Shown one piece after another: positions 3,308-22,121 of a stretch of DNA of 28,917 nt. The stretch is from the IMG/VR virus record IMGVR_UViG_3300035689_000064, positions 1-28,917 of that record; one strand, 5' to 3'. Source of the DNA: a virus. A program made the translations under genes and the position numbers. The notes beneath the pieces were generated by a model, which was given only the letters and a program-made list of their open reading frames with translations, was not told where the DNA came from and made no database searches. How positions within the stretch are numbered: the first letter of the stretch is position 1; every line of letters starts with the position of its first letter.

Positions 3308-5126
3308 TAATAAATACGTTTTAGAATTTCAAATAGATGATAGCGGTGTTGTTAAAAAGGTTGACAATATTAGCAAAAAGGTTGATGACATTGGAGGTAA
3401 TGCAAAAAAGTCAGCAACAGCAGCAACTAAATCTTTCAAAGATATGGCAGGTAACATTGCCAAGTCTTTGGGTGTTATTGGTTTGGTTGCTACTGCTATT
3501 GGGGCGGTAAAAGAAGTCCTTGCAGGTAATCAAAAAATAGTTGATTTTTTCAGCGTGGCAATGGGAACATTGTCAGATATTGTAAAAGATACATTCAACT
3601 TTATTACTGAAAATGCAGGGCAAGTAGTTGACTATTTCAAAGCAATATTTGAGGATCCTCTTGGTTCATTACAAAAGTTAGGTGAGGCCATTAAAGAAAA
3701 TCTCATTGAGCGTTTTGTTTCTTTTGGTGAAACATTGGGATTAATTGGAAAGGCAGTAGCTGAATTTTTCAGTGGTGAATTTTCCAAATCTTTTGAGACA
3801 TTAAAGGCAGCAGGAAAAGAAAGTATTGATGTACTTACTGGGGTTGATGATACGGTTGACAAAGTCACGGAAACAGTTACTACTGCTGTTGAAACTTTTG
3901 GTAAATATATAAGTAAAACTGTTGAAGCAAATCAGCAATTAGTCACATTGCAAAACAATGCTAAGTTAGCCGCAGCAGAACAAGCGAGATTAGCCGAACA
4001 ATATGATAGAAGTGCTGAATTATTGCGCCAAGCACGTGATGATGAGCGAAAGTCTATTGATGATAGGATTAAAGCTAATAATGAATTAGCTGATGTTTTA
4101 GATAAACAAGAGAAAGCGGAATTAGCAGCAGCAAATGCACAAGTAGCAGCAGCATCTGCAATGGTTCAGCATAACAATACTATTGATAACCAGGTAGCAT
4201 TAACACAAGCACTTGCAAATGCTGATGGTGTACGTGCAAAAATTGCAGGGTTAAGGTCGGAACAACAGATGAATGACCTTGCATTAAGCAAAGAAAAGAA
4301 CGAATTGCTGAAAAGTGAAAGCGAAGCAACTGCTCAATTGTCACTTGAAAATCAAAAGTTCTACGCAGAAAGAATTAAAGATGATAATGCAAGATTAAAT
4401 GCGCTCAAATATGTATTAGGTGAAGAACGCAAACTTGAATTAGCAAGATTGCAAGAGCAAATAGATACTTATGCATTAGGAACACAGGCAAGAGTTGATG
4501 CGCAAATAGCATACAATCAAAAGAAACAAGAGTTAGATCAACAAGAAGTCGCATTAGATGACCAATTAAAGGAGGTCAAAAAGAAGAATATCCAAGAGCG
4601 ATTAGATGCCGAAGCACAAGCTGAACAAAAAAGAGTTGAAATAGCAGCAAATGCAGTTGGTGCATTGATGGCAATTACTGATGCGGTTGGTAAAAATGAT
4701 AAGGAGGGTGCAAAAAGAAGATTTAAAATAAATAAAGCATTGGGTATTGCACAAGCAGGTATCAATACCTATATGGCTGTAAACGCTGCATTAACAGCAG
4801 GAGGTAACCCAATCAAGTTGGCTACTGGTGCGCAATTCGTTGAAGCAGGAATAGCACTTACAATGGGACTTGCTAACGTGGCTGCAATTGCTAAAACTAA
4901 ATTTGATGAGAGCGCAGGAAATGCACCATCTACATCAGGTGGAGGTGGGGGTGCAATGGGTGGAGGCGGTGGAGGTTCTACATCTGCACCTGCATTGGAT
5001 TTATCTTTCTTGAACAATGGACAAACGAAAGCACAACCGTTACAAACGTACGTTTTAGCTACTAATGTGACAAGCGCTCAGGATGCGCAACAGAAGATTT
5101 TAGACCAATCAAAACTAATAAAATAA
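3300..5126 (+). CDS. tape measure protein
   Basis: The protein has 608 residues. After a short N-terminal stretch it has a hydrophobic segment (about 54-77), then a long Ala/Glu/Lys/Gln-rich coiled-coil region (about 200-460). A second hydrophobic stretch near 475-535 (GIAQAGINTYMAVNAAL and TMGLANVAAIAKT) is very typical of tape-measure C-termini in this phage group. A glycine-rich linker and a short tail follow. Tape measures occupy the tail-tube lumen and set tail length. At about 1.5 angstrom per residue, 608 residues predict a tail near 90 nm. Unusually, the gene lies after the tip genes and just before the prohead protease. Confidence 0.8.
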   Translation: MADNKYVLEFQIDDSGVVKKVDNISKKVDDIGGNAKKSATAATKSFKDMAGNIAKSLGVIGLVATAIGAVKEVLAGNQKIVDFFSVAMGTLSDIVKDTFNFITENAGQVVDYFKAIFEDPLGSLQKLGEAIKENLIERFVSFGETLGLIGKAVAEFFSGEFSKSFETLKAAGKESIDVLTGVDDTVDKVTETVTTAVETFGKYISKTVEANQQLVTLQNNAKLAAAEQARLAEQYDRSAELLRQARDDERKSIDDRIKANNELADVLDKQEKAELAAANAQVAAASAMVQHNNTIDNQVALTQALANADGVRAKIAGLRSEQQMNDLALSKEKNELLKSESEATAQLSLENQKFYAERIKDDNARLNALKYVLGEERKLELARLQEQIDTYALGTQARVDAQIAYNQKKQELDQQEVALDDQLKEVKKKNIQERLDAEAQAEQKRVEIAANAVGALMAITDAVGKNDKEGAKRRFKINKALGIAQAGINTYMAVNAALTAGGNPIKLATGAQFVEAGIALTMGLANVAAIAKTKFDESAGNAPSTSGGGGGAMGGGGGGSTSAPALDLSFLNNGQTKAQPLQTYVLATNVTSAQDAQQKILDQSKLIK

Positions 5127-11495: not shown

Positions 11496-11940
11496 GTATG
11501 TAAGTTACTTTGAAGTAACCCATAGCAACCAAGCTAAGGCATTGAAGATTGGGAATATCCCAAACGCTGAACAATTGGGGAATTTGAAGCTCGTATGTAC
11601 CAACATTTTTGATAAGGTGCGTGAGCATTTCGGAAAGCCCATTGGTATCTCATCAGGTTTCCGAAGCTATGAATTAAATCAACGCATAGGTGGGAGTAAG
11701 TCCAGTTTACATATGCAAGGTATGGCACTTGATATTGATGGGGATATTCACGGAGATATAAGCAATAAAGATATATTTGATTACATCAAAAAAAATTGTA
11801 CTTTTGACCAACTGATTTGGGAATTTGGAAGTGAGAACGCACCATCTTGGGTTCACGTAAGTTACAATAAGAATGGGAATAGAGGTCAAGTGTTACGTGC
11901 GGTCAAGAGTGGTGGTAGAACTGTTTACCAACCATTCTAA
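11479..11940 (+). CDS. endolysin, M15 peptidase
   Basis: This 153-residue protein has a complete zinc peptidase site of the M15 family (D-Ala-D-Ala carboxypeptidase-like): SGFRSYELN at 59-67, SSLHMQGMALDI with the S-x-H-x-x-G-x-A-x-D pattern (His78, Asp85), and WVHVSY with the third zinc ligand His126. No signal peptide or wall-binding domain is present, so it needs the upstream holin to reach peptidoglycan. It would cut peptide cross-links of the host wall. Length and motif spacing match stand-alone phage M15 lysins. Confidence 0.9.
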   Translation: MEKVSKYVSYFEVTHSNQAKALKIGNIPNAEQLGNLKLVCTNIFDKVREHFGKPIGISSGFRSYELNQRIGGSKSSLHMQGMALDIDGDIHGDISNKDIFDYIKKNCTFDQLIWEFGSENAPSWVHVSYNKNGNRGQVLRAVKSGGRTVYQPF

Positions 11941-11945
11941 AATAT

Positions 11946-12932
11946 ATGGCAGAAAGTCAAAAAACAAAAATCGCGCGTGAATTGCGTGAGCGTTTTCCAG
12001 ATACACCAACTTTAACGTTGGCTAAAAAGTTAAGCAAAGAACATTTCGAAACATTCTTGGGTGTTGAAGATGCGCGTCACGCACTGCGTAGGATTGAAGG
12101 AAAGACTGGTAAATACAGACCTGCCGACAAATCTTTTATAGTGGAGAATGATAGACCACGTAACCCATTCAAGTTGCCAAAGTCGTATGCAAAAGGTCGA
12201 AAGCATATTGACATCAAAGGCAAAAAGATTTTAATACTATCCGATATTCATATTCCATACCACGATATTGATGCGTTGTCAACTGCTATCCAGTGTGGTA
12301 TTGATGAAGGAGTAGACACGGTTGTATTAAATGGAGATGCATTAGACTGCCATATGATTTCTGACTTTGTCAAGGATCCAAAGAAACGTAAATTCAAGGA
12401 TGAACTTTACGCAATGCGGACTTTCATTTATGAGTTGAGGCAAACTTTTCCAGATGCTGAAATAATCTATAAAGAAGGCAACCACGAAGAACGCTACTGG
12501 CGTTATATGCGTGTGAAAGCACCCGAACTTTTTGATATAGATGCATTTGATTTCGCAAGTCTTTGCCATCTTGATAAGCACAACGTGCAATGGATTGAAG
12601 GCAAGAATAAATTAAACGTAGGCGGTCTATCAATATTTCACGGTCACGAATTCGGAAAGCAATTTATACCTTCTGTAAACGTTGCCAGAGGTCTATTCTT
12701 AAAGACCAAAGCAAATGCAATGTGCGGACATCATCATCAGACTGCTGAACACACTGAGCGTGATGTAAATGGCAAAGTTATCACGTGTTGGGGTGTTGGG
12801 TGTCTCTCTGAATTATCACCTGATTACAACCCATATAGTAAATACAATCACGGATTCGCTATAATAACTAAAGGCAATGGAAAAGAATTTCACGTTAAAA
12901 ATTATCGTATTAATCAAGGCAATATCTATTAG
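11946..12932 (+). CDS. metallophosphoesterase
   Basis: This 328-residue protein carries the calcineurin-like phosphoesterase motifs in order: DIHIPYHD (Asp100, His102), NGDALD (129-134), EGNHEERY (Asn179, His180), FHGHEFG (His232) and GHHHQ (261-265). Residues 1-60 form a helical, basic, probably HTH-like extension (FPDTPTLTLAKKLSKEHFE) that could bind DNA. The substrate is unknown; phage relatives may act on nucleic acids or nucleotides. It sits between the endolysin and the spanin-like pair, so it may be a lysis-cassette passenger. All metal ligands are intact. Confidence 0.85.
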   Translation: MAESQKTKIARELRERFPDTPTLTLAKKLSKEHFETFLGVEDARHALRRIEGKTGKYRPADKSFIVENDRPRNPFKLPKSYAKGRKHIDIKGKKILILSDIHIPYHDIDALSTAIQCGIDEGVDTVVLNGDALDCHMISDFVKDPKKRKFKDELYAMRTFIYELRQTFPDAEIIYKEGNHEERYWRYMRVKAPELFDIDAFDFASLCHLDKHNVQWIEGKNKLNVGGLSIFHGHEFGKQFIPSVNVARGLFLKTKANAMCGHHHQTAEHTERDVNGKVITCWGVGCLSELSPDYNPYSKYNHGFAIITKGNGKEFHVKNYRINQGNIY

Positions 12933-17083: not shown

Positions 17084-17402
17084 TGTGTTGATTTTTAGTT
17101 GTTACAAATTTACTTAAATCCCAAGCTGAGCGAACTGCTGCCTTCCAGTCTTTCATCTTATTCTTGCCGTACTTCCAACCGGTATTGGTGTAATGGCTGA
17201 TAAAGACATCCGCAAAATTAAGCGCATCTTCGGAGTTGGCATTGGGCATTCTTTCGAGAAAGTAGTCAGCGACTTCTTCAAGCGATGGAGCAGTGAAACG
17301 ACATTCTTTGGATTTTGTTTGATTCATCAATTGTTCCATCTTGCTCAATCTCTCTTCGAGATATGAGATTCTTGAACATAAAGACTGGTAGTTGTTTTCC
17401 AT
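17028..17402 (-). CDS. replication-region protein with FTAPSxEEV...MKDWKAAVR domain
   Basis: This 124-residue protein has an N-terminal coiled coil (SRISYLEERLSKMEQLMNQ) followed by a conserved module: FTAPSLEEVADYFLER, then FADVFISHYTNTGWKYGKN, then KMKDWKAAVRSAW. I know this module from small proteins and from C-termini of primosome-type proteins in Bacteroidota phages and prophages. It probably mediates a protein contact in replication initiation. The coiled coil supports the start at 17402, although that start overlaps the DnaA-like gene by 125 bases. Confidence 0.65.
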   Translation of the reverse strand: MENNYQSLCSRISYLEERLSKMEQLMNQTKSKECRFTAPSLEEVADYFLERMPNANSEDALNFADVFISHYTNTGWKYGKNKMKDWKAAVRSAWDLSKFVTTKNQHNDTIGRIQRDTIQQWVNS

Positions 17403-17868
17403 TTAGTTGTTGTTTTAGTTCGCTGCAATTATAGCCATATTTCTCGAATTTGTCAAAACACTCTTCAGCAATAGTTCGGTAACTCATATCATTCGTGTAC
17501 AATTCAATAAACTTTTTAGCGTTGCTTATTGCTGATGCATGGTCTAAGTTAAAGAGTGATCCGATATACTGCCAAGTATGTTCAGTTGCAAAATAATACA
17601 ACGCAATGTAATAACTTCGAGCGTCTGCAATTGGGCGGGTGCGTATCTTTTGCTTTAACTTTTCAACCGATATACCAAGAATATCAGAACAGCATTCGTC
17701 TAAAATTTCAGCAACAGTTCGGAATTCGCCTGCGTGTTGTATAAGTGTTTCAAGATGTTCTATTATCTCATCCTTTTCTTCGTGAATCATTAAGTCTTTG
17801 AGATTAGTCAAATGCATCACACTGCTAACTTTTAGATTATCAATAACCTTTATCAAATCTTTATTCAT
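17278..17868 (-). CDS. DnaA domain IV-like origin-binding protein
   Basis: Residues about 53-125 resemble the C-terminal DNA-binding domain of bacterial DnaA: a helix ending ISVEKLKQKIRTRPIADAR (the basic-loop region), the YYIALYYFATEHTW helix, IGSLFNLDHASAISNAKKF (the DnaA signature region) and a final helix. The AAA+ ATPase part of DnaA is absent. A stand-alone domain IV could mark a phage origin or redirect host DnaA or helicase. The last 43 residues overlap the next gene in another frame and look unlike the rest, so they may be dispensable. The gene sits directly downstream of the small HTH protein. Confidence 0.75.
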   Translation of the reverse strand: MNKDLIKVIDNLKVSSVMHLTNLKDLMIHEEKDEIIEHLETLIQHAGEFRTVAEILDECCSDILGISVEKLKQKIRTRPIADARSYYIALYYFATEHTWQYIGSLFNLDHASAISNAKKFIELYTNDMSYRTIAEECFDKFEKYGYNCSELKQQLNGKQLPVFMFKNLISRREIEQDGTIDESNKIQRMSFHCSIA

Positions 17869-19796: not shown

Positions 19797-20192
19797 ATGA
19801 AAGGGAAAATTATCCAATCAATGAAGCCACGTGCGAAGAAACCATTGGCAGGGGAGGCGGGTGTACAGGTTGCCATTGTGCAATATATCAAAATGCAGTA
19901 CCCAAACGCACTTTATTGCGCCTCTGCGGGGGGAATGTTTACCTCAATGAAGCAGGCTATTAAAATGAAAATGACTGGATACGTGAAAGGATTTCCTGAT
20001 TTGCAAATATGCGAACCCAATGAGAAATACCACGGTCTTTTCATTGAGGTCAAGACGGATAAAGGTGTTGTGAGCAAGGAACAAAAGGAATGGATAAAGC
20101 AATTGAACAAACGTGGGTATTATGCTACTTATGTGAAAGGCAGCGAAGATGCCATTAAATTGATAGATGCATATTTCCAAAACGCAATATGA
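19797..20192 (+). CDS. VRR-NUC domain nuclease
   Basis: This 131-residue protein matches the VRR-NUC family of PD-(D/E)XK nucleases: AGEAGVQVAIVQYIK (Glu on the first helix), a strand, KMTGYVKGFPDLQI (Asp68), GLFIEVKTDKG (Glu84 and Lys86) and SKEQKEWIKQL with the conserved Gln96. Phage VRR-NUC proteins are structure-specific endonucleases probably used to resolve branched DNA during replication. It is the first gene of the rightward early block, just past the divergent promoter region. Confidence 0.85.
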   Translation: MKGKIIQSMKPRAKKPLAGEAGVQVAIVQYIKMQYPNALYCASAGGMFTSMKQAIKMKMTGYVKGFPDLQICEPNEKYHGLFIEVKTDKGVVSKEQKEWIKQLNKRGYYATYVKGSEDAIKLIDAYFQNAI

Positions 20193-20649
20193 TCAGCATA
20201 GGCGGTTAGCCGTCAACTTGTGCGGCGGCAACGTTTACGAAGCGGACGACCTTCTGCATGATACTTTGCTATGCATCTTTGAAAATGGCAATGAGATACG
20301 CAATAGTGAGCATTACATAAATCACGCACTGAAAATCGCGCACTGGTCGAATCGTTCCCACTACCATAACACCATTCGCAAGTTTAATCAAATGTCGGAT
20401 GAGCCTACGGAATCACAACTGAGAGATTATGAGAGTGTGACTGTATGGTTGGGTGACCGCATTACAAATGAGCAACTTGATATCTTGATTAGTAGACTTC
20501 CATTCTTTGAGCGAGAGGTGTTTTATCTTTATGCCTTAAATGACTTTTCATATAACGACCTATCCATTGATACTGGTATCCCTAAGAAAGTCCTTTACAA
20601 CGCAGTTAAATACGCAAAAAACGAAATAAAAAAAGCTATTGTGATATGA
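20167..20649 (+). CDS. sigma-70-like RNA polymerase sigma factor
   Basis: This 160-residue protein has a region-2-like segment (AVNLCGGNVYEADDLLHDTLLCIFE) with the D-L-x-x-(D/E) style of ECF sigma factors, and a region-4-like HTH near the end (ISRLPFFEREVFYLYALNDFSYNDLSIDTGIPKKVLYNAVKYA). The linker is short and there is no region 1. It overlaps the nuclease gene by 26 bases. It is the most likely activator of phage middle or late transcription, since most of the late block shows no TAnnTTTG promoter. Confidence 0.7.
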   Translation: MHISKTQYDQHRRLAVNLCGGNVYEADDLLHDTLLCIFENGNEIRNSEHYINHALKIAHWSNRSHYHNTIRKFNQMSDEPTESQLRDYESVTVWLGDRITNEQLDILISRLPFFEREVFYLYALNDFSYNDLSIDTGIPKKVLYNAVKYAKNEIKKAIVI

Positions 20650-21140
20650 ATAAGATAATTGAAATGGCAAATATGCGGATGGCTATTTGTCGTGAATGCC
20701 CGGTATACAATTCAACTACCCGAACTTGTGGCACTCCACTAAATAAATTGAACCCATTTGCTACACCTGTAACGTTGGATGGTGTGACCTTTAAGCCGTG
20801 CGGATGTTTCCTTGATCTCAAAACTAAAATGACTTTTCAGGATTGTCCAGGTGGACGTTGGCCCATTGTAGTGGATAGCGAAAAGAAAGCGCAAGCGAAA
20901 GAGTTGGTAGCATCCGTTAAGGCAACCAATGTGCTAACTGATCCGCAGCGCAGGTTGTTAGCCGAATTTGATGAGTTGATGAAAGGCAGTAAAGGTAAGG
21001 TGAGTAGTTGTGTGCCGTGCGTTAATAAGATGATTGACGACCTCCATAACCAACTAAAAACTGAGGAGGTGCTACTTACTACAGAAGAAACCACAATACC
21101 TAAGAAACGTGGAAGAAAACCAAGAAAATCAGGAATATGA
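20646..21140 (+). CDS. Cys-rich zinc-binding phage protein
   Basis: The 164-residue protein has Cys pairs C-R-E-C-P-V-Y (15-21), TRTCGTPLNKL, KPCGCFLDLKTK and FQDCPGGRWP, a spacing that suggests a zinc ribbon. A later SSCVPCVNK pair and a basic tail (KKRGRKPRKSG) resembling an AT-hook follow. It overlaps the sigma-like gene at ATGA. Similar proteins occur widely in Bacteroidota phages without known function. Partner or cofactor of the sigma factor is an inference from the coupled translation. Confidence 0.65.
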   Translation: MNKIIEMANMRMAICRECPVYNSTTRTCGTPLNKLNPFATPVTLDGVTFKPCGCFLDLKTKMTFQDCPGGRWPIVVDSEKKAQAKELVASVKATNVLTDPQRRLLAEFDELMKGSKGKVSSCVPCVNKMIDDLHNQLKTEEVLLTTEETTIPKKRGRKPRKSGI

Positions 21141-21334
21141 TGAGTCTGCTTCATTTTTGTTTTATGTCCTATGGACTGATCGCATTGTTACTTATTGGGT
21201 TGATGGCAGTGATGATGCTAAGGCGAACCCTACCTACTTCAATTGAAAATATTTTGGGAATGATATTTACCGCATTTTGTTGGCCTGTTGTGTTGGCAAT
21301 GACAATTGTAGAATTGTTCAAAAGTAGTGAGTAA
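21137..21334 (+). CDS. small membrane protein, two TM helices
   Basis: The 65-residue product has two hydrophobic helices (FCFMSYGLIALLLIGLMAVM and IFTAFCWPVVLAMTIVEL) joined by a short basic turn (LRRTLP). It overlaps the Cys-rich gene by 4 bases and ends the rightward early block. It could be an immunity or superinfection-exclusion protein, but there is no direct evidence. Confidence 0.6.
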   Translation: MMSLLHFCFMSYGLIALLLIGLMAVMMLRRTLPTSIENILGMIFTAFCWPVVLAMTIVELFKSSE

Positions 21335-21362
21335 TTAACAGACAACCATTGACCTGAATTAC

Positions 21363-21730
21363 TATCTTTGTGATGTTGAGATGATAAAGTACTGCCCCTT
21401 TGGTTTTTAGAATCTCAACAATTCAAAAAATCATTGGGGCATTCTCTTTTTAATGGCGGTGTAAATACGCTTGGTTAAAAGGAGTAAGCGTTACAAGGGG
21501 ATGATGGCACAGCGCAGCGGTAGCATTAAGGACAAAGCCGCAAGACCATCACACGAGCCGAGAATCGTGTTAAAGTAGTGTCCAGGTCAAAGGTCAACGG
21601 TGATACTTTGAAACTTGAAGGTGAGGGACTCATTCGACAGATTGAATCTTAATCATCAAAGGGGAGTGACCACTGAGGTGAAAGTCAGTAGGATATTCTC
21701 ATTCCCTTTTGGTTCAGGATCTATTCTCTA
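21363..21730 (+). ncRNA. candidate structured RNA between early and late blocks
   Basis: No protein gene fits 21335-21764. Starting from a TATCTTTG box (21363-21370; no well-spaced -33 box), the strand can form: TGTTGAGAT/ATCTCAACA (21374-21382 with 21412-21420); TGCCCC/GGGGCA (21393-21398 with 21436-21441), a pseudoknot over the first stem; ACGCTT/AAGCGT (21467-21472 with 21486-21491); TGATGG/CCATCA (21502-21507 with 21546-21551) enclosing GCGG/CCGC; GGACA/TGTCC (21530-21534 with 21579-21583), a second pseudoknot; CACGA/TCGTG (21552-21556 with 21565-21569); TCAAAG/CTTTGA (21587-21592 with 21606-21611); and a final stem of about 14 bp (21655-21668 with 21700-21713). It matches no RNA class I know. 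Confidence 0.55.
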
Positions 21731-21747
21731 GATTAAATAATATTACT

Positions 21748-21755
21748 TATATTTG
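21748..21755 (+). promoter_or_regulatory. TAnnTTTG box before the next rightward gene
   Basis: TATATTTG lies ten bases before the ATG at 21765. No well-placed TTG is seen 17-23 bases upstream, so this is half a promoter by consensus. If used, the message would be nearly leaderless, as at 8035-8050. Confidence 0.45.
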
Positions 21756-21764
21756 TTATTATAT

Positions 21765-22121
21765 ATGATTATACTACCTGCTCAAATCGAATCAATCAAA
21801 TCTCGCAAGGATAGGACAACAGCCATTGTTATTGGCACTAATGAATTAACTCCTACCCAAGCGGGGCAAATATTCAGTCTGCAAAATTCATTCGTTTATT
21901 GCGCTCTAAAAGAGGAGGAGTTTGCTACTAATGAAAAGGAGGTGATGAATGATCTTAAAGCCGACTTTGAAATAGAAAAGAAATCGAATGGTCAAAGGCT
22001 AAGGAATGTCCTTTACAAACTATACGAACAAGACAAAGAAGGATTCTTGACCTTCACTAAATATTACGACCATAAGATGGAACAACTAATAAACCACTTT
22101 AAGACTAAGTTAGAAATATGA
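21765..22121 (+). CDS. conserved phage protein, 118 aa, unknown function
   Basis: The start at ATG 21765 gives MIILPAQIESIKSRKDRTTA; a TTG four codons upstream would overlap the promoter box. The pattern IESIKSRKDRTxxIVIGTxELTPxQAGxxFxLQ followed by LKADFE and a helical C-terminus (QRLRNVLYKLYEQ) recurs in Bacteroidota phages. It suggests a small beta-barrel plus helices, possibly a nucleic-acid-binding accessory protein. No catalytic motif is visible. It is the first protein gene after the structured-RNA stretch. Confidence 0.7.
   Translation: MIILPAQIESIKSRKDRTTAIVIGTNELTPTQAGQIFSLQNSFVYCALKEEEFATNEKEVMNDLKADFEIEKKSNGQRLRNVLYKLYEQDKEGFLTFTKYYDHKMEQLINHFKTKLEI

Follow-up and report, generated by a model that had tools for sequence, protein, structure and literature searches.

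A gene-free stretch with two RNAs

The DNA considered here, viral record IMGVR_UViG_3300035689_000064 over its full 28,917 nucleotides (nt; called the window below), comes from a freshwater phage of the Flavobacterium type, and its stretch 21335-21764 encodes two separable structured RNAs following a promoter of the Bacteroidota type. Between the gene end at 21334 and the gene start at 21765 there is no credible open reading frame, and an earlier note, made from the letters of the sequence, was right to describe it as free of protein genes. All RNA features given here lie on the plus strand. The box TATCTTTG (21363-21370) is the predicted Bacteroidota -7 promoter box of the non-coding transcript; it is followed by a first RNA, module 1 (21373-21449), and then by a larger one, RNA-A (~21444-21738). 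A second box, TATATTTG (21748-21755), would be the own promoter of the next gene, whose ATG is at 21765. Both boxes had been named in the earlier note as bordering the region, and both are there. A TATNTTTG box stands immediately 5' of module 1 in all collected relatives, and immediately 5' of RNA-A in L059 (L numbers designate loci of the collection), which has no module 1. The -7 box of the downstream gene is 9 nt from its ATG (21748-21767), with equal or smaller spacing in L040 and L043, and the arrangement of box and ATG is alike by eye in L040, L043 and L030; it suggests that the mRNA of that gene may be nearly leaderless and independent of the RNA. The region has more G (26.5%) than the flanking genes (24.2% and 18.2%), as had been remarked, though on the upstream side the excess is modest. 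Its placing between early and late gene blocks is only loosely right, the neighbours being a VRR-NUC nuclease, a sigma-like protein and a DNA methylase.

Evidence for the fold

Relatives were gathered with the gene just upstream (20646-21140) as query, which gave 71 related loci, and with an exact word of the RNA, which gave more. The single-sequence fold beats its shuffles (z -3.2, 1 of 100; opposite strand, z -2.1), but a shuffle score taken alone is weak evidence and it is covariation that is decisive. The plus strand is fixed by the frequency of G.U pairs. The complementary pairs listed in the earlier note were all found at their sites, and when homologues were compared the pairs proved to co-vary in RNA-A and in module 1 alike (34 sequences each), which supports a genuine structured RNA with two pseudoknots. 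What did not survive is the idea of a single unit: there are two RNAs and not one, since many relatives have module 1 but no RNA-A, and L059 has RNA-A but no module 1.

A scan of the window with Rfam and ARAGORN, the models for group I introns and RNase P included, yielded nothing at cut-offs, in keeping with the earlier view that the region is no tRNA, tmRNA, RNase P or intron. The label 'unassigned' is apt to the extent that no Rfam family matches at its cut-off, and inapt in that the main RNA is a diverged relative of one of them, RF02932. Two further candidates were set aside. CopA (RF00042) reaches 21.8 bits on module 1 with an expectation value (E) of 0.17, below its gathering score of 60, and a weak Rfam match to JUMPstart/ops at 21510-21527 (16.2 bits) was taken to be a chance one, since its GGTAG part is variable in L006 and L068.

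Module 1 is an H-type pseudoknot extending to ~21441 and then a U-rich stretch. Its helix TGTTGAGAT (21374-21382) with ATCTCAACA (21412-21420) is crossed by TGCCCC (21393-21398) with GGGGCA (21436-21441), an inner extension is present, and both crossing helices co-vary, just as the pseudoknot had been drawn by eye. Over the 34 sequences its 19 pairs have 97.2% of cells paired, and covariation is 0.254 against 0.069 in shuffles (0/500). It is followed by RNA-A, RNA-B or RNA-C, of which no locus in the collected set has more than one, and in some loci a tRNA-like element lies in between. Where it shares a transcript with RNA-A, module 1 may act as a 5' cap with a stabilising or regulatory effect.

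Structure of RNA-A

RNA-A, ~295 nt long, has ten helices and two pseudoknots, P2 crossing P3 and P5 crossing both P3 and P4. Among 34 distinct sequences 96.1% of its 65 pairs are standard and 36 pairs are doubly changed (0/500 shuffles); with the partners slid, pairing falls to 35-43%. As the structure was derived from the tested sequences themselves the percentage paired is somewhat favoured, and more weight belongs to the double changes and to the counts for each helix. Most of P1, P4, P6, P7 and P10 is also recovered independently by RNAalifold, a program unable to draw pseudoknots.

The 5' part begins with the hairpin P1 (CTCTTTTTAA with TTAAAAGGAG, 21444-21484; 8/10 pairs doubly changed). 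P2 (GCGTT 21488-21492, AGCGC 21511-21515), pseudoknotted with P3, is 100% paired, and its variants run from GCGTT/AGCGC to GCACT/AGTGC and GAGCT/AGCTC. P3 (21502-21507/21546-21551) encloses P4 (GCGG 21517-21520, CCGC 21538-21541), and both have compensatory changes. The second crossing predicted in the earlier note, of GGACA/TGTCC over GCGG/CCGC, is that of P5 (GGACA 21530-21534, TGTCC 21579-21583; 3/5 pairs doubly changed) over P4. There follow P6 (21552-21556/21565-21569; 5/5 doubly changed), P7 (21587-21596/21601-21611; 6/10) and a weak 3-base-pair hairpin, P8 (21630-21632/21643-21645). The 3' stem with its nested ACTGA/TCAGT hairpin, also foreseen, is present as P9 (21658-21669/21699-21710), which has the weakest support of all (88.5% paired), and within it P10 (21672-21676/21685-21689), which co-varies. 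Last comes the motif GGATCTATTCTCT (21717-21729), conserved in RNA-A.

Kinship with RF02932

The Rfam family RF02932, Betaproteobacteria-1, has no recorded function and a curated cut-off of 49.4 bits. Two divergent relatives of RNA-A, L059 and L068, match it over the whole model (35.8 and 35.2 bits, E 1.5e-5 and 4e-5); the window gives no match at the gathering score or at E<=10. As the window is unmatched and these two are below the cut-off, the window is to be called a superfamily relative of RF02932 and not a member by cut-off. The loops UGGCGG and ACAAGGGGAU of the window stand against UGGUCGG and ACUGUGGGA in RF02932, whose conserved loops UGGUCGG...CAGCG and CUGUGGGA are absent from the window. 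The gap is bridged by L059, with the full RF02932 motif, and by L068, with UGGCGG and ACUAGGGGAU; P1 is the counterpart of the UGGUCGG...CAGCG hairpin, alignment A3 bridging the loops. GGATCTATTCTCT has its counterpart in UUCACC or GCUC of other class members.

A degenerate pattern of the RF02932 loops combined with a helix filter gave, after removal of coding false positives, ~60 viral loci, ~30 of them distinct. The phage contig L172 has a genuine RF02932 match (76.5 bits), with nuclease, terminase and portal genes downstream of it. This RF02932-like set shares the five-helix core of RNA-A, including the two crossings that are absent from the Rfam annotation: 25 pairs are 92.9% paired, with covariation of 0.697 against 0.18 shuffled and 0.09-0.18 slid. 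By covariation the helix order P1-P2-P5 is in register in both sets, the P3/P4 topology is alike, and P5 crosses P3 and P4 in the same manner. The likeness thus takes in a homologous core of P1, P2 and P5, with P3, P4 and both pseudoknots added here. The differences are that the window is far under the cut-off, that RNA-A has ~295 nt against a model of 120 positions, and that the loops differ.

Covariance models were built from each side. The first, R1, made from the RF02932-like set with RNA-A excluded, picks up L059, L202, L216, L193 and L184 (E 6e-10 to 1e-8), with a weak match to L066 as well. Run over the whole window with default filters, it matches nothing; with filters off its best match there is at the expected place, 21443-21600, with 7.1 bits (E 0.013 for 1.2 kilobases). 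The second, R2, made from bridging members and RNA-A relatives, the window excluded but its close relatives included, detects the window (E 2.5e-30) as well as RF02932-like members (E down to 6e-8), and matched none of eight controls (RNA-B, RNA-C and cultured phages). Two independently built models therefore connect the two sets in both directions; judged by these comparisons the chain from RNA-A to RF02932 is solid, and the direct step from RF02932 to the window weak.

Acidovorax phage AP1 and the complete phage MW202545 also carry an RNA of the class (E 2e-20); in AP1 (OM049504) it covers 11853-11992 and extends beyond. An exact pattern for RNA-A was found in none of 84,980 species genomes, R1 in none of 296 Bacteroidota genomes (a search without positive control), and the pattern CTGTGGGNAAGGNGCTGAAA gave chance matches only in genomes. 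A literature search brought up no description of the feature, the 2017 source paper of RF02932 being outside its reach. The Rfam model for its part covers neither P3 and P4 nor the two pseudoknots, nor any of the 3' half in which the guide loop lies; the loci gathered here would allow the family to be rebuilt.

A repeat that changes in step

The loop and 3' side of P8 hold a guide-like nonamer, DR1 (AGATTGAAT, 21639-21647), of which a same-sense copy, DR2 (AGATTAAAT, 21730-21738), stands immediately past GGATCTATTCTCT, and the two co-vary. RF02932-like members are phage RNAs with the same repeat: in this type I arrangement the nine bases after GGCUCC, in the 3' part, recur in the same sense directly after the CACC motif at the 3' end of the RNA. 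Among 23 distinct type I pairs 6.5 of 8 positions are identical, against 2.8 when partners are swapped (0/20000 permutations); anchoring was by motif only and blind to the repeat, and three pairs are visibly mis-anchored. For the RNA-A clade, where DR1 follows ...CGAC and DR2 follows ...TCTC(T/G), 18 distinct pairs gave 0/20000 permutations, and positions 1-5 change together in 18/18 (A/A, G/G, T/T etc.). There are at least nine different guide sequences, each matching its own flank. Because members share descent, the permutation figures are not probabilities of independent events. In several members DR1 sits, by eye, in a hairpin loop following GGCUCC with varied closing stems.

The mismatches have a direction. 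At type I positions 2-9, 12 are G in DR1 and A in DR2 against 3 of the opposite kind, and at RNA-A position 6 there are 15 G/A and 0 A/G. If the RNA pairs with its template, this is the residue to be expected of G.T wobble between DR1 in the RNA and the template strand of DR2. No consistent reverse-complement copy of the repeat was seen in or near the RNA, and the repeats of the window have none; all that turned up was a single 7-mer in each of two loci, in positions with no relation to one another. This makes the template strand at DR2 the simplest partner.

What might the repeat be for?

RNA-A may be the non-coding transcript of a phage RNA class that takes in RF02932 and works as an R-loop origin in the manner of ColE1 RNA II, a reading to which we would give a probability of roughly 0.42. 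The structured RNA, its family and the coupled repeat with its wobble direction provide the starting point; the transcription, the pairing at DR2, the R-loop and the replication would follow thus. As RNA polymerase leaves the gene, DR1 would loop back and pair with the template strand at DR2, the pairing would keep the bubble open behind the polymerase and so produce an R-loop in the flanking DNA, and this would prime or open a replication origin as RNA II does in plasmid ColE1. There a folded transcript keeps the DNA from which it was copied open and acts as primer for replication (PMC5043065). A folded non-coding transcript with an internal segment pairable with the template strand near the 3' end, in RNA-A that of DR1/DR2, would be common to both, though there is no sequence relation and the pairing segment of RNA-A is a variable 9-nt guide. 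In RNA II it is reportedly a G-rich stretch that pairs with the template strand near the origin, as Masukata and Tomizawa are said to have described in 1990. In preprimers of this type the 3' end of the RNA primes DNA synthesis once RNase H has processed it.

In the 26 members compared, the sense strand has an excess of purines over the first 60 nt past DR2 (0.65 against 0.53), and GC content there is below that of the contig in 25/26. A helicase and a Toprim primase lie directly 5' of the RNA in L187, L236, L256 and L294, and the cluster is downstream of it in L191 and L218. Just 3' of the RNA, L250 and L257 have a primase that was judged by eye, from the zinc finger at its start, to be of the T7 type, and in AP1 the RNA follows helicase and primase. 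Other neighbours are an ERF annealase (L182), VRR-NUC nucleases (the window and L184) and terminase genes (L172 and L256).

Several points weigh against an R-loop origin. GC skew in the complete phages AP1 and MW202545 has no minimum at the RNA, though it is uninformative as an origin test; the window phage has a protein resembling the C-terminus of DnaA, a possible conventional initiator, although DnaA boxes are not enriched (34 found, 48 expected); and unless a helper protein assists, nine base pairs make a short hybrid. In the window and in L059 the flank past DR2 is rich in AT and not in purines, and intergenic AT-richness together with Shine-Dalgarno purines could explain part of the flank signal. 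An unanchored search for 9-mer repeats in single genomes was not significant against shuffles, the evidence being comparative, and only the motif-anchored and covariation tests were used on that account.

Should the loop indeed bind its own template strand, there would be RNA-directed action on the phage's own genome, most likely in the initiation of replication. Phages of Bacteroidota and Proteobacteria would then share a class of RNA with a programmable guide loop matching their own DNA just downstream, an RNA-guided and protein-light marking or opening of an origin (or packaging site) whose counterpart has not been described; this wider proposal we hold tentatively, at somewhat less than even odds. 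As it is, RF02932, an Rfam entry of no known function, proves to be a small visible part of a broad class of phage RNAs that combine a double-pseudoknot core with a guide-like loop coupled to the adjoining DNA, and a sequence signature for finding more members is now at hand.

The guide might instead bring a protein to DR2, say a nuclease, terminase or recombinase of phage or host, for use in packaging, homing or site-specific cleavage; the flanking recognition motif would then be the 3' motif, UUCACC or, in RNA-A-like members, UCUC/GCUC. A programmable coupling of guide and target beside a fixed motif is what such a system would have, and terminase genes, identified by annotation or by inspection of the sequence, are near the RNA in L172 and L256 and nuclease genes in others. 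However, no protein family is common to the 5-kilobase flanks of all members, the most widespread cluster reaching 9/33, and the target adjoins the gene of the RNA, which is not where a target for defence or homing would lie; we regard this as unlikely. The regulatory, packaging and anti-defence roles put forward in the earlier note are conjectural, and specific support for the latter two is absent. The genes associated are those of replication, recombination and terminase, and the coupling of the internal repeat with the 3' flank points to a role in DNA targeting that the earlier note did not see.

Control of transcription in cis is a distinctly doubtful proposition, be it that DR1 on the template strand within the next promoter acts as a switch or that the RNA is a put-like antiterminator with module 1. 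DR2 of the window is 9 nt upstream of the TATATTTG box, and module 1 is a promoter-proximal pseudoknot with a terminal U-run, yet RNA-B or RNA-C can stand in place of RNA-A before the same gene with no co-varying repeat detected, and downstream genes vary widely over the class.

That exchange of A, B and C types at one site, along with a guide that equals the 3' flank and differs per phage, would also suit a mobile element similar to a bridge RNA or an intron, which would insert next to DNA matching its guide, DR2 marking the insertion site. In the bridge RNAs of IS110 elements, RNA loops pair with DNA beside the RNA gene. RNA-A would resemble them in having a loop pairable with adjoining DNA and differs in having one 9-nt guide segment instead of paired donor and target loops; no IS110-type transposase was recognised among the flanking genes examined (representative proteins scanned). 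With no recombinase or reverse transcriptase recognised adjacent, the RNA at a syntenic core position in the flavobacterial set, and RNA-B and RNA-C sites that are unlike an empty copy with DR2, mobility seems very improbable.

The exchangeable non-coding RNA and tRNA-like cassettes at the one locus resemble an accessory island, and a trans-acting RNA, for instance an anti-defence decoy or an RNA-polymerase-binding RNA whose repeat serves another RNA partner, could be housed there. It would leave the constant 3' position of the repeat partner and the wobble direction unexplained, and appears to us quite improbable. The ornate RNAs GOLLD and ROOL are likewise large folded RNAs (PMC12286853); RNA-A is much smaller and without an Rfam match. 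GOLLD and ROOL RNAs, too, occur in phages, and a guide-like repeat is not known for them.

Other elements at the site

RNA-B (L012 2217-2437 and 29 further loci) is an alternative non-coding element at the same site as RNA-A, with an apparent pseudoknot switch from TTGCC/GGCAA to TTGGC/GCCAA. RNA-C (L030 4805-5192, L041 4792-5170 and 16 further loci) is a third, putative RNA of ~380 nt, some copies of which end in a terminator-like hairpin with a T-run. The scanned loci of both have no Rfam match, and as hidden members of the class they were rejected, being unmatched by R1 or R2 and having no convincing co-varying repeat. Seven RNA-B loci (L035 2491-2546, L019, L028, L049, L055, L057 and L063) contain a polypyrimidine mirror repeat of the H-DNA type, TTTTCTTTTCTTTCTTTTTCTTTTTT-A.C-mirror with ~27 nt per arm, nearly invariant between phages whose neighbouring protein is only ~40% identical.

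The tRNA-like element between module 1 and the next RNA (L002 4805-4896, L010, L004, L017 and L011) has acceptor, D and T arms and an abnormal anticodon region; in L002 it scores 39.5 bits with the Rfam tRNA model and has no ARAGORN call. Possibly it is a tRNA mimic. A further insert between module 1 and RNA-A, in L020 (~4805-4935) and L005, is possibly tRNA-like, with no ARAGORN or Rfam call. In L027, L024, L037 and L042 a gene that by eye is ParB-nuclease-like lies between RNA-B and the conserved downstream gene, and in other phages the slot between the RNA and that gene has different small genes.

The phage and its genes

By its protein sequences the phage is a tailed one of the flavobacterial kind. 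The terminase is 44% identical to that of Flavobacterium phage 11b, and the gene downstream of the RNA 37% identical to that of Cellulophaga phage phi19:1; in these two, the nearest cultured relatives by terminase and downstream gene, the covariance model had no match. The minus-strand gene at 17278-17868 encodes a protein with the DnaA C-terminal helix-turn-helix (Pfam E 1.4e-7, just above cut-off), a possible phage replication initiator. Three genes upstream of the RNA, 20167-20649 on the plus strand encodes a sigma-factor-like protein (PHROG 1740, E 2e-9), which could direct late promoters.
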